64,000 nt of DNA from an uncultured Phycisphaerae bacterium (lineage in GTDB: Bacteria > Planctomycetota > Phycisphaerae > UBA1845 > Fen-1342): NCBI GenBank assembly GCA_937928595.1, contig CALGJV010000003.1, forward strand, positions 62,001 through 126,000, read 5' to 3'. Positions 7,941-60,626 of the stretch are shown here, one piece after another. Position numbers and translations under genes: made by a program. Under the pieces are notes generated by a model. The model made no database searches. It saw only the letters and a program-made list of their open reading frames with translations, and was not told the origin of the DNA. Each line of letters opens with the position of its first letter. Position 1 is the stretch's first letter.

Positions 7941-12359
<4,419 letters not shown>

Positions 12360-12476: not shown

Positions 12477-13832
12477 TCAACCGCCGGGGATGTTGTACTT
12501 GGCCATCTTGTCCCGCAGCGTGGTGCGCGGGATGCCCAGCCGCTGGGCCGCACGAGCCTGGTTGTTGCCGCACTGTCGCAGCGCCAGCACGATCATCCGC
12601 CGCTCGAGATCCGCTACCGTCTCGTGCAGATCCAGCGTCGCGGCCGTCAGCGGCTCGAGCGGCGGCGGAGCGGTCTCGCCGCGTCCGCCGCCCAGCGGCA
12701 GGACGTGCTCGGGCCGGATCTCGGGCCCGTCGCAGAAGGCCAGGGCGCGCTCCAGAACGTGCTCCAGCTCGCGGACGTTGCCCGGCCAGTGGTAGCGCAG
12801 CAGCTCGTCGAGCGCGGCGCCGCTCAGGTTGACGTGCCCGGCGTCGACTCGCCGCGCGTGGCGCGACAGAAAGTGTTGCGCCAGGATCGGCACGTCGTCG
12901 CGCCGCTCGCGCAGCGGCAGCAGGTCGATCCGCCCGCCGCTGAGACGGTCGAGCAGCTCCGCCCGCAGCCGGCCGTCCGCGACGGCCCTCGCGGGATCGG
13001 CGGCCGTGGTGCAGATCACCCGCACGTCGAGCTCGATGGGGGTCGCGGCGCCGCGCCGCTCGATCGCCCCGTGGGACAGCAGCCGCAACAGCCGGGGCTG
13101 CACCTCGAGCGGAATCCGCTCGAAATCGTCCAGCAGCAGCGTCCCCCCGTCGGCCAGTTCACAACGGCCGGCCCGCGGGCGGGCGGCCCCCGGCACGGCG
13201 CCCTTTTCGTAGCCGAACAGCTCATTCTCGAGCACGGCCGCGGCCACGTCCGCGCAGCCGAAGCGGACGAGCGGCTTGGCCCCGCGCGGGCTGAGTTCGT
13301 GGAGCGTCTCGGCCACGGCGTCGCGCCCCGTGCCCCGCTCGCCGACGATCAGCACCGGCCGGTTGGTCGGGGCGAGCGTCCGCACCTGCTGAAACACGCG
13401 GCGGAGTGCGGGGCTGCGCCCGACGAGCCGGCCGCACGTGTCCGGCGGGCCCCCGGCCCCGCCGGCCGGACGACGGGCCATCAGGGGCTCGAGCTTGGCC
13501 AGGAGTTCCTGGGTCGTGAAAGGCTTGGTGATGTAATCGTGGGCACCCCGCTTGATCGCGAGCACGGCGGTGTCGATCGTCGCGTAGGCGGTCATGAGGA
13601 TGACTTCGACCGCCGGGCGGGTCTGCTTGATGTGCGTGAGCAGGTCGAGCCCGCTGAGGCCGGGCATGCGGACGTCGGATACGACGACGTCGATCGGACA
13701 GGTGTCGAGAATGCGACGCGCGGCCGCCGCGTCGGCGGCTTCGTAGACCTGATAGCCGTTCTCGGCGAGCTCGATCTGGAGCGTGATCCGTTTCAACGGC
13801 TCGTCGTCGACGACGAGGATGGAACCGGGCAT
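12477..13832 (-). CDS. NtrC-family response regulator with degenerate AAA+ motifs
   Basis: The protein is 451 residues from ATG 13832 (MPGSILVVDDEP). The receiver domain (1-118) is intact, with D53 as the phospho-acceptor, the DD pair near 9-10 and K103. The central AAA+ domain (135-365) departs from active sigma-54 activators. Walker A is GERGTGRD, with Arg170 in place of Lys; Walker B is LLLDD, with Asp for the catalytic Glu at 236; and the sigma-54 contact loop is GAVPGA (211-216) instead of GAFTGA. The arginine-finger region (GRLRAELLDRL) is recognisable. A Fis-type helix-turn-helix occupies about 420-447 (NNQARAAQRLGIPRTTLRDK). It probably binds DNA and senses phosphorylation but may not drive sigma-54 open-complex formation. 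No cognate kinase is adjacent. Confidence 0.9.
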   Translation of the reverse strand: MPGSILVVDDEPLKRITLQIELAENGYQVYEAADAAAARRILDTCPIDVVVSDVRMPGLSGLDLLTHIKQTRPAVEVILMTAYATIDTAVLAIKRGAHDYITKPFTTQELLAKLEPLMARRPAGGAGGPPDTCGRLVGRSPALRRVFQQVRTLAPTNRPVLIVGERGTGRDAVAETLHELSPRGAKPLVRFGCADVAAAVLENELFGYEKGAVPGAARPRAGRCELADGGTLLLDDFERIPLEVQPRLLRLLSHGAIERRGAATPIELDVRVICTTAADPARAVADGRLRAELLDRLSGGRIDLLPLRERRDDVPILAQHFLSRHARRVDAGHVNLSGAALDELLRYHWPGNVRELEHVLERALAFCDGPEIRPEHVLPLGGGRGETAPPPLEPLTAATLDLHETVADLERRMIVLALRQCGNNQARAAQRLGIPRTTLRDKMAKYNIPGG

Positions 13833-13959
13833 ACGCGTCCCTGAAGTGTCCGAGGGGCCTCTCAACCGCCGGCCGCGCATTGCACCGCAAACAGCGCAGG
13901 ACCGCAACCGCCCGCGCGCCACCTCGCAGAGGGCTGCGTCGAGCCCCGTCGCGGAGCCG

Positions 13960-14631
13960 CTACCGGGCCGGCGGTCCCTGGGCGATCCGGGCTTCGAACG
14001 CGGCCTTCAGCTCCGGGTCGGCCAGGATCACGGCGATACGGGCCGCCAGCGCCTGGCCGTACTGCGTGCCGCGCTGCCGCTCGTCTTCGGTCGTGTGGCC
14101 CATCAGCAGCCCGAGCAGCTCGTTCTGGGTGGGCGCTGGTCCGGCCGTGCCCTTTTCGATCCGCGTGTTGCCGACGAAGCGGCTGAGCTGGTTGTACGCG
14201 ACGATCCGTTCGTCGAGGAAATCCTGCCGCGCCGCTCCCGACAGCGCGTGGTAGCGTTCAATGTCGCGCATCAGCAGGGGCTTGAATGCGTCGAACAGGT
14301 GGGCCCGGAATGCCGCCTGCTGCTCGGGGGCCGACGTGCGGTATTCGGCCAGGAACCGGTCGCGAAACGCGGCATCCGTGACCAGCCGCCGCACCTGCGC
14401 TTGAAGAAACGCCTCGCAGCGGGCCCCGCGCAGACGCGGCAGCCCCTTCGGGTGCATCATGTACTGGGCCACCACATCGGGCGGCGTGTCCGCGCCCGGC
14501 ACCGCCGGCACCAGCAGCACTTCCGCGACGAACCACCACAGTCCGCCCAGCGCCACGATGGGCGCAGCGCAGAGCGCGACCATCTTCGCCCGTCGCCACC
14601 GGTAGAATGACCGTGCGTCACCCGTCAGCAT
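13960..14631 (-). CDS. Single-pass membrane protein of unknown function
   Basis: ATG 14631 follows a strong GAGGAGCGC and gives 223 residues. A short basic cytoplasmic start (FYRWRRAK) is followed by one membrane helix at about 17-42 (VALCAAPIVALGGLWWFVAEVLLV). The remainder is a predicted extracytoplasmic helical domain rich in Ala, Arg, Glu and Gln, with regular heptad-like stretches. No lipobox, enzyme motif or known domain is evident. It diverges from the LigD-like gene at 14712. The frame stays open further upstream to 15126, but that extension overlaps the divergent gene and is Pro/Arg-rich. Confidence 0.65.
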   Translation of the reverse strand: MLTGDARSFYRWRRAKMVALCAAPIVALGGLWWFVAEVLLVPAVPGADTPPDVVAQYMMHPKGLPRLRGARCEAFLQAQVRRLVTDAAFRDRFLAEYRTSAPEQQAAFRAHLFDAFKPLLMRDIERYHALSGAARQDFLDERIVAYNQLSRFVGNTRIEKGTAGPAPTQNELLGLLMGHTTEDERQRGTQYGQALAARIAVILADPELKAAFEARIAQGPPAR

Positions 14632-14711
14632 GCGCTCCTCGGCGTCGCGGCGCCGCGGCCGCGCCGTCTGACAGCGTAGTCGAGCGCGGCGGGGGCGTAC
14701 AGGCGACCCGC

Positions 14712-15089
14712 ATGTTCGCGCTGCTGGAACACGACCCGACCCCGTCCACCGGAGCACCGCCGGCCGCCCCCCCGCATTGGGACCTGCTGGTCGCGGTGGC
14801 GGGCCTGGAGCGAGTGCCGACGTGGCGTTTGGTCGCCAACCCGCTGGCGGCGGCCGCGCCGATTCCAGCCGAGCGGATCGGCGACCACCGCCCCTTGTAC
14901 CTGACGTACGAGGGACCCGTGAGCGGCGACCGCGGCCGCGTGCGGCGGCTGGATGAAGGCCCGGCCGATGTGCTGGCGCTGGATGGACCGCGGCTGCTGG
15001 TCGTCTTTCACGGGCAGCGTCTGCGCGGGCGGTGGGAGGTCGTGGCCGGCGGCAGGGGGCACGTGCTGCGACGCGTGGCCGGGCCCTGA
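14712..15089 (+). CDS. Stand-alone LigD-type 3'-phosphoesterase-like protein
   Basis: This 125-residue protein keeps the order of motifs found in the N-terminal phosphoesterase domain of bacterial LigD: an early EHD, then HWDLL (the family has HxDLRLE), then HRPLYLTYEGPVSGDRGRVR and DEG (the family has H-x-x-Y-x-x-FEG-x-I-P...G-x-V-x-x-WDxG), ending in LRGRWEV. LigD PE domains trim 3' phosphates or ribonucleotides at DNA breaks during end joining. Here no ligase or polymerase domain is attached and no Ku gene is nearby. The His and Asp of the first two motifs are present. ATG 14712 lacks a clear Shine-Dalgarno sequence, so the start is uncertain. Confidence 0.7.
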   Translation: MFALLEHDPTPSTGAPPAAPPHWDLLVAVAGLERVPTWRLVANPLAAAAPIPAERIGDHRPLYLTYEGPVSGDRGRVRRLDEGPADVLALDGPRLLVVFHGQRLRGRWEVVAGGRGHVLRRVAGP

Positions 15090-60108: not shown

Positions 60109-60516
60109 GGCGGAGTGGGCCAGGCGGTCGCGGCCGGGTCTCCGGACGCCGGTCGAGGAAAGTCCGAGCTGGATCGGGCACGGTGATGGCTAACGGCCAC
60201 CGGGCGTGAGCCCAGGGAAAGTGCCACAGAAAAGACACCGCCCGGCCGGGCGTGCCCGGTCGTGGTAAGGGTGAAAAGGTGCGGTAAGAGCGCACCGCGC
60301 GACCGGTGACGGTCGTGGCAGGGCAAACCCCACCGCCAGCAAGCCCAAATAGGGGGCGAGAGCCGGCCCGGCTCGTTACCAGCCCCGGGTAGGGCGCTCG
60401 AGCCCGTTGGCAACGGCGGGCCCAGAGGAATGACCGCCGCCCGGTCGAGCTCGCCTGCGGCCTGCGGGCCCCTGGGCCGACCGGGCACAGAACTCGGCTT
60501 ACCGGCCCACTCCGCC
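60109..60516 (+). ncRNA. rnpB: RNase P RNA, bacterial type A
   Basis: The RNA of about 408 nt is bounded by a perfect 13-bp P1 helix (60109-60121 with 60504-60516). Conserved core segments occur in order: GAGGAAAGTCC (CR-I), CCACAGAAAA, GGTAAGAGCGCACCG, GCAAACCCCACC, AGAGGAATGACCG and ACAGAACTCGGCTTACC near the 3' end, including the P4 strands. RNase P matures tRNA 5' ends. Several long frames overlap it but have no coding features. Confidence 0.96.
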
Positions 60517-60626
60517 CGCTCCGGCCGGCGCGCCCGGACCGGCGCGGCTTCGTCGTCCGGCGAGGGCGCGGGTACGATGGTCCCCGCAGGGCCCGCCGGC
60601 CGGGGGCGGCGGCACGAGGTACGGGC

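Follow-up and report, generated by a model that had tools for sequence, protein, structure and literature searches.

HupR of Rhodobacter capsulatus is an NtrC-type response regulator that has lost its interaction with sigma-54 and is sigma-70 dependent, and TyrR and DhaR, which have an NtrC-like core without a working GAFTGA, are also sigma-70 dependent (PMC3162934). VpsR, with an NtrC-like core that likewise lacks a working GAFTGA, regulates sigma-70 promoters and does not require phosphorylation (PMC10274813, PMC3162934). The NtrC proteins of R. capsulatus and Caulobacter regulate sigma-70 promoters as well and need their phosphorylation site; in addition, Rhodobacter NtrC needs ATP binding and Caulobacter NtrC needs both Walker motifs (PMC10274813). 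The weight of individual residues can be judged from PspF, in which the GAFTGA substitution T86A results in no engagement of the sigma-54 complex, N64S is still able to engage it, and the Walker B substitution E108D is close to wild type on duplex DNA (PMC4132715). Among about 110 homologues that deviate in GAFTGA, Thr-to-Pro is the preferred change (PMC3162934).

The protein described here resembles the NtrC proteins of R. capsulatus and Caulobacter in having a receiver, an AAA+ core and a Fis-type helix-turn-helix (HTH) and in having lost the GAFTGA region; however, their loop was lost by deletion, whereas in our protein it is substituted and the Walker A lysine is an arginine. It is similar to HupR in being NtrC-type with GAFTGA lost, a likeness by kind. 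Both the architecture of this group (NtrC-type with GAFTGA lost) and its conserved, intact receiver and HTH were found in the protein. The sensory domains of TyrR and DhaR are of other types, and VpsR is independent of phosphorylation, whereas our protein has an intact aspartyl receiver and a kinase that co-occurs with it.

Results

The window, i.e., the entire 64,000-nucleotide stretch of DNA that was analyzed, belongs to genome G000 (3.69 Mb, 46 contigs, 98% complete). On its reverse strand (12477..13832) it encodes an NtrC-type response regulator of 451 amino acids with the N-terminus MPGSILVVDDEPLKR, as judged from the translation, Pfam and 33 orthologues. All of its parts lie on this strand: the receiver (residues 5-114; 13491..13820; PF00072, 102 bits), a degenerate AAA+ sigma-54-activator domain (residues 136-300; 12933..13427; PF00158, Sigma54_activat, 162.6 bits), the AAA+ lid with its sensor II WPGNVRELE kept (residues 308-377; 12702..12911; PF25601, 80 bits), and the Fis-type HTH, NNQARAAQRLGIPRTTLRDKMAKY (residues 406-446; 12495..12617; PF02954, HTH_8, 55.8 bits). 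When NCBIfam profiles were compared with the regulator, no equivalog scored above its cut-off.

An earlier note on this DNA had reported altered Walker A, loop and Walker B motifs next to normal receiver and Fis domains, and the translation bore this out to the letter. Walker A reads GERGTGRD (residues 164-171; 13320..13343; K170R) in place of the GESGTGKE of most orthologues in the window's family (f1), the L1 loop reads GAVPGA for GAFTGA (residues 211-216; 13185..13202; F213V and T214P), and Walker B reads LLLDD (residues 232-236; 13125..13139; E236D) where canonical orthologues have LLDE. Compared with bEBPs, then, the AAA+ sigma-54 interaction fold is present, the GAFTGA loop and the Walker A lysine are absent, and the Walker B acidic pair is DD, not DE. 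An AF2 model of the AAA+ fold was confident (pLDDT mostly >90) and matched the NtrC1 AAA+ domain with a target TM of 0.92-0.96. Both arginine-finger arginines, R290 and R296, are conserved, and the position aligned with the N64 "switch" of PspF is Gly, compared with Ser in canonical orthologues. Since PspF fails to engage with T86A and tolerates E108D, the change to GAVPGA carries most of the weight and E236D alone would not; for the same reason, the earlier view of the Walker B Glu as a strict requirement was too strong (PMC4132715).

The divergence of the protein is restricted to one domain. Its identity to 13 canonical f1 orthologues was 0.770 in the receiver, 0.519 in the AAA+ domain and 0.782 in the HTH, compared with 0.781, 0.787 and 0.782, respectively, when canonical f1 members were compared with each other. 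Since 47 of the 127 AAA+ sites that are invariant among these 13 orthologues were changed, as opposed to 1/59 receiver sites and 1/23 HTH sites, degeneration of the AAA+ domain exceeds chance. The receiver retains D10, the phosphoacceptor D53, T81 and K103, and the HTH is intact. The other degenerate f1 members displayed the same pattern, mildest in G002; the HTH count was higher in G017, where a long insertion before the HTH disturbs the alignment.

The orthogroup comprises 34 proteins, one per genome, from three families of a single Planctomycetota (Phycisphaerae-like) order: 20 of the 27 genomes of f1, one genome of f4 and 13/13 genomes of f6. A receiver-only search, in which orthologues had at least 53% identity (E of 1e-33 or better) and paralogues at most 48% (6e-30 or worse), with the sole exception of a G025 copy that begins at a contig end, recognized no orthologue in the order outside these families. 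The regulator was not found in 7/27 f1 genomes, although most genomes are draft metagenome bins in which absences may be gaps. Among the f1 members, the loop reads GAFTGA in 13/20, a one-letter variant in 2/20 (GAFTNA and GAFTSA in the otherwise canonical orthologues of G001 and G006; L018, L026), and lost in five, i.e., GAVPGA in the window, GTVAGA in G002, GAAGAA in G015, replaced in G012 and deleted in G017. GAFTGA is absent from all 14 members of f4 and f6. The earlier note had proposed that orthologues be aligned to see whether all three changes co-occur, and they do not. Only the loss of GAFTGA recurs; K-to-R in Walker A was seen in G000 and G044 only, most degenerate orthologues keeping the lysine (Ala in G038/G039, missing in G033), and Walker B changes vary from lineage to lineage. 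The residue table of orthologues rules out a single inherited set of three changes. D10, D53, T81 and K103 are conserved in its every row, and the 25 aligned orthologues all carry the same HTH string, PRTTLRDK. Separately, the G009 orthologue (L025 / L142) ends in RTTLRAPSHEP rather than RTTLRDKMAKY, perhaps through a frameshift or assembly error, and G008 contains a second exact match to the DDEPLKR pattern (G008:C50:7829-7848), which may reflect an additional copy or duplication of a contig.

Phylogenetic analyses indicated that GAFTGA was lost repeatedly. Since the f1 members are separate from the f4/f6 members on the full-length protein tree, the motif was lost at least twice, given a canonical ancestor. 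The full-length tree also groups the five degenerate f1 members (98/95); however, the RpoC tree, for which overlapping pieces of G009 were merged and in which G016 is one third complete, rejects a clade of their genomes (p-AU 1.7e-5). The receiver and HTH alone neither supported nor rejected such a clade (p-AU 0.27). A single common loss in these five members was set aside on the RpoC result, the receiver and HTH being indecisive, and the RpoC tree points to further independent losses within f1. Their grouping on the full-length tree may result from long-branch attraction, and a degenerate copy could have been transferred. The earlier note had held that canonical orthologues within the lineage would signify private decay. 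At the genus level this was observed, the nearest genome to G000 on RpoC being the canonical G022, a weak placement; however, because the same loss of GAFTGA recurs in other orthologues, the case is not simply one of private decay.

One f6 genome encodes an orthologue without a motor. G035 contains an intact 224-aa frame (L249:2955-3626, G035:C82) with matches to PF00072 and PF02954 only, i.e., a receiver and an HTH with the AAA+ domain absent. Its identity to orthologues was 51-67% in the receiver and 62-83% in the HTH. The gene occupies a syntenic position, downstream of a UDPGP gene, as does the full-length orthologue in G044, and upstream of a membrane-protein gene that other f6 genomes also have in the vicinity of the regulator. 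Regulators of the RegA/PrrA/ActR type have a two-domain architecture of receiver and Fis-HTH. G035 matches it in architecture, and among the proteins considered only G035 consists of these two domains alone, the window protein still having its core. On this sequence evidence the AAA+ core is dispensable, in G035 at least, and, given the recurrent losses and its complete absence in one relative, the regulator probably has no further need of its motor.

In degenerate pairs from the same genus, dN/dS was about 0.02 in the receiver, 0.07 in AAA+ and 0 in the HTH (G041/G042), and 0.07, 0.30 and 0.08, respectively (G038/G039). By these ratios the AAA+ core of such pairs is relaxed yet still constrained. 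The degenerate cores are mutually divergent, with a mean identity of about 0.48-0.50.

A candidate kinase accompanies the regulator. The regulator gene of G031 overlaps a gene for a HAMP/HisKA/HATPase_c histidine kinase, and that of G040 lies beside the corresponding kinase gene. The G000 kinase (C22:128253-129359) is intact, with H, N and G boxes present. In f1, 17 genomes contained both genes, three the regulator alone, one the kinase alone and six neither (Fisher p=0.0017, uncorrected for phylogeny); the three regulator-bearing f1 genomes in which the kinase search was negative are all <85% complete. Adjacency in relatives, together with this co-occurrence, suggests that the HAMP kinase phosphorylates the window regulator.

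G000 itself encodes sigma-54 (rpoN; PF04552, 177 bits) and four other proteins with a full Sigma54_activat domain, which scored 233-242 bits compared with 162.6 for the window regulator and whose loop is GAFTGA in three and GAFTDA in one. Since rpoN and four canonical-type activators remain, loss of GAFTGA is not a by-product of sigma-54 loss. Sigma-54 loss as the cause of degeneration was ruled out more widely, rpoN being present in G000, G002, G015, G017 and, as a fragment, G012.

A putative sigma-70-type promoter, TTGCGG-N17-TGCAAT (13879..13907, reverse strand), lies about 46 bp ahead of the ATG and was recognized by a shared upstream pattern; TTGATY-N17-TGCAAT is common to the upstream regions of f1 orthologues, canonical ones included. 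The assignment is suggestive only, the consensus having been derived from the same sequences. Upstream of the regulator gene, no sigma-54 promoter was found in the window, and other orthologues gave two weak matches only. Palindrome and k-mer footprinting of the region upstream of the gene revealed no convincing operator or target site, and genome-wide counts of -24/-12 matches did not separate degenerate from canonical genomes.

As for neighboring genes, the regulator converges with an RpoC gene downstream (7941-12359, forward strand) and also adjoins rpoC in G013 and G014. The upstream gene (13960..14625, reverse strand) encodes a 221-aa single-pass membrane protein of no Pfam family, a candidate neighbor whose link to the regulator is uncertain. 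In several f6 genomes, distant homologues lie close to the regulator; as an obligate partner the protein was ruled out by its occurrence in genomes without the regulator. A short ORF at 14607-15089 has a weak, sub-cut-off match to the LigD 3'-phosphoesterase domain, and the window also contains a class A RNase P RNA (60112-60517, 263 bits).

Discussion

The earlier note had read the altered motifs as the mark of a sigma-54-independent regulator, or of a phosphorylation-controlled DNA-binding protein with an inert AAA+ core. Domain-restricted divergence, recurrent loss of GAFTGA, the motor-less orthologue in G035 and the retained kinase all favor that reading; the three changes were not inherited together as a set. 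We consider it likely, on comparative grounds, that the window protein is a functional, phosphorylation-controlled DNA-binding regulator uncoupled from sigma-54 open-complex formation. A membrane histidine kinase, presumably the HAMP protein, would phosphorylate D53 of the receiver, and phosphorylation would govern dimerization or oligomerization and, through it, how the Fis-type HTH binds its DNA sites. The bound regulator would then activate or repress, by recruitment or occlusion, a promoter that we take to be of the housekeeping-sigma class. With GAFTGA lost, the AAA+ core would no longer contact sigma-54 and, with K170R, efficient ATP hydrolysis would probably be gone, the core staying as a folded scaffold or dimerization spacer under relaxed selection.

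A related but considerably less probable scheme is that the protein is a nucleotide-dependent sigma-70 activator of the R. capsulatus and Caulobacter NtrC kind, its ATP-bound core being needed to form the active oligomer. Residual ATP binding, as in R. capsulatus NtrC, may persist, because K170R is not strictly exclusive of nucleotide binding, PspF tolerates the counterpart of E236D and the arginine fingers are kept. Conservation of the fold and of those fingers, the Walker A lysine in most degenerate orthologues, some purifying selection on AAA+ and the published precedents (PMC10274813) agree with such a core; however, the lysine is replaced by Arg in the window protein and by Ala in G038/G039, G033 lacks it, and G035 does without the core entirely.

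It is improbable, in our estimation, that the gene is decaying toward loss, i.e., that selection on sigma-54 activation was lifted and the protein is becoming non-functional. Divergence of the receiver and HTH is no greater than in canonical orthologues, dN/dS of degenerate pairs from the sister family is well below 1 in all three domains, degenerate forms persist in 13/13 f6 genomes, and the kinase is retained; these observations stand against the extent of the AAA+ changes (47/127 invariant sites) and the seven f1 genomes without the regulator. Six f1 genomes lack both regulator and kinase, so that the system as a whole is dispensable in some genomes, and loss of the window copy could be under way.

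We think it very doubtful that the core is a ligand-binding scaffold, e.g., one that binds a cyclic dinucleotide in the manner of VpsR or FleQ: these two proteins were among the sequence and structure matches, as NtrC-type proteins generally were, but the window core offers no specific evidence of a ligand site, the degenerate cores are strongly dissimilar to each other, and G035 lacks the core. Least credible of all is an unusual but working sigma-54 activator in which GAVPGA is tolerated, for although sigma-54 is present in G000 and a Walker B E-to-D change functions in PspF (PMC4132715), both Phe and Thr of GAFTGA are replaced, T86A leaves PspF unable to engage the sigma-54 complex (PMC4132715), Thr-to-Pro is favored at that position in defective homologues (PMC3162934), and constraint is relaxed across the whole AAA+ domain.

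With the window protein read as a phosphorylation-controlled regulator independent of sigma-54, its orthologues invite a broader proposal. Single NtrC-type proteins that left sigma-54 are already known (HupR, Rhodobacter and Caulobacter NtrC, VpsR). What stands out here is the unusual completeness of the series that runs between canonical and motor-less forms, in orthologues from neighboring genera with a near-identical HTH and a co-occurring kinase. We put forward tentatively, at somewhat short of even confidence, that one orthologous regulator with one kinase and a nearly unchanged HTH has repeatedly switched from sigma-54-dependent, ATP-driven action to sigma-54-independent action, every stage (canonical, loop-mutated, loop-deleted, ATPase-dead and motor-less) surviving. 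If true, NtrC-type proteins would have a natural evolutionary path to RegA/PrrA-type (receiver-Fis) regulators, the target promoters changing class while the regulator stayed the same. The series makes testable a regulator's change of promoter class in which the signal is kept and the DNA site is probably kept, and the usual label of "sigma-54-dependent response regulator" probably misdescribes proteins of this kind.
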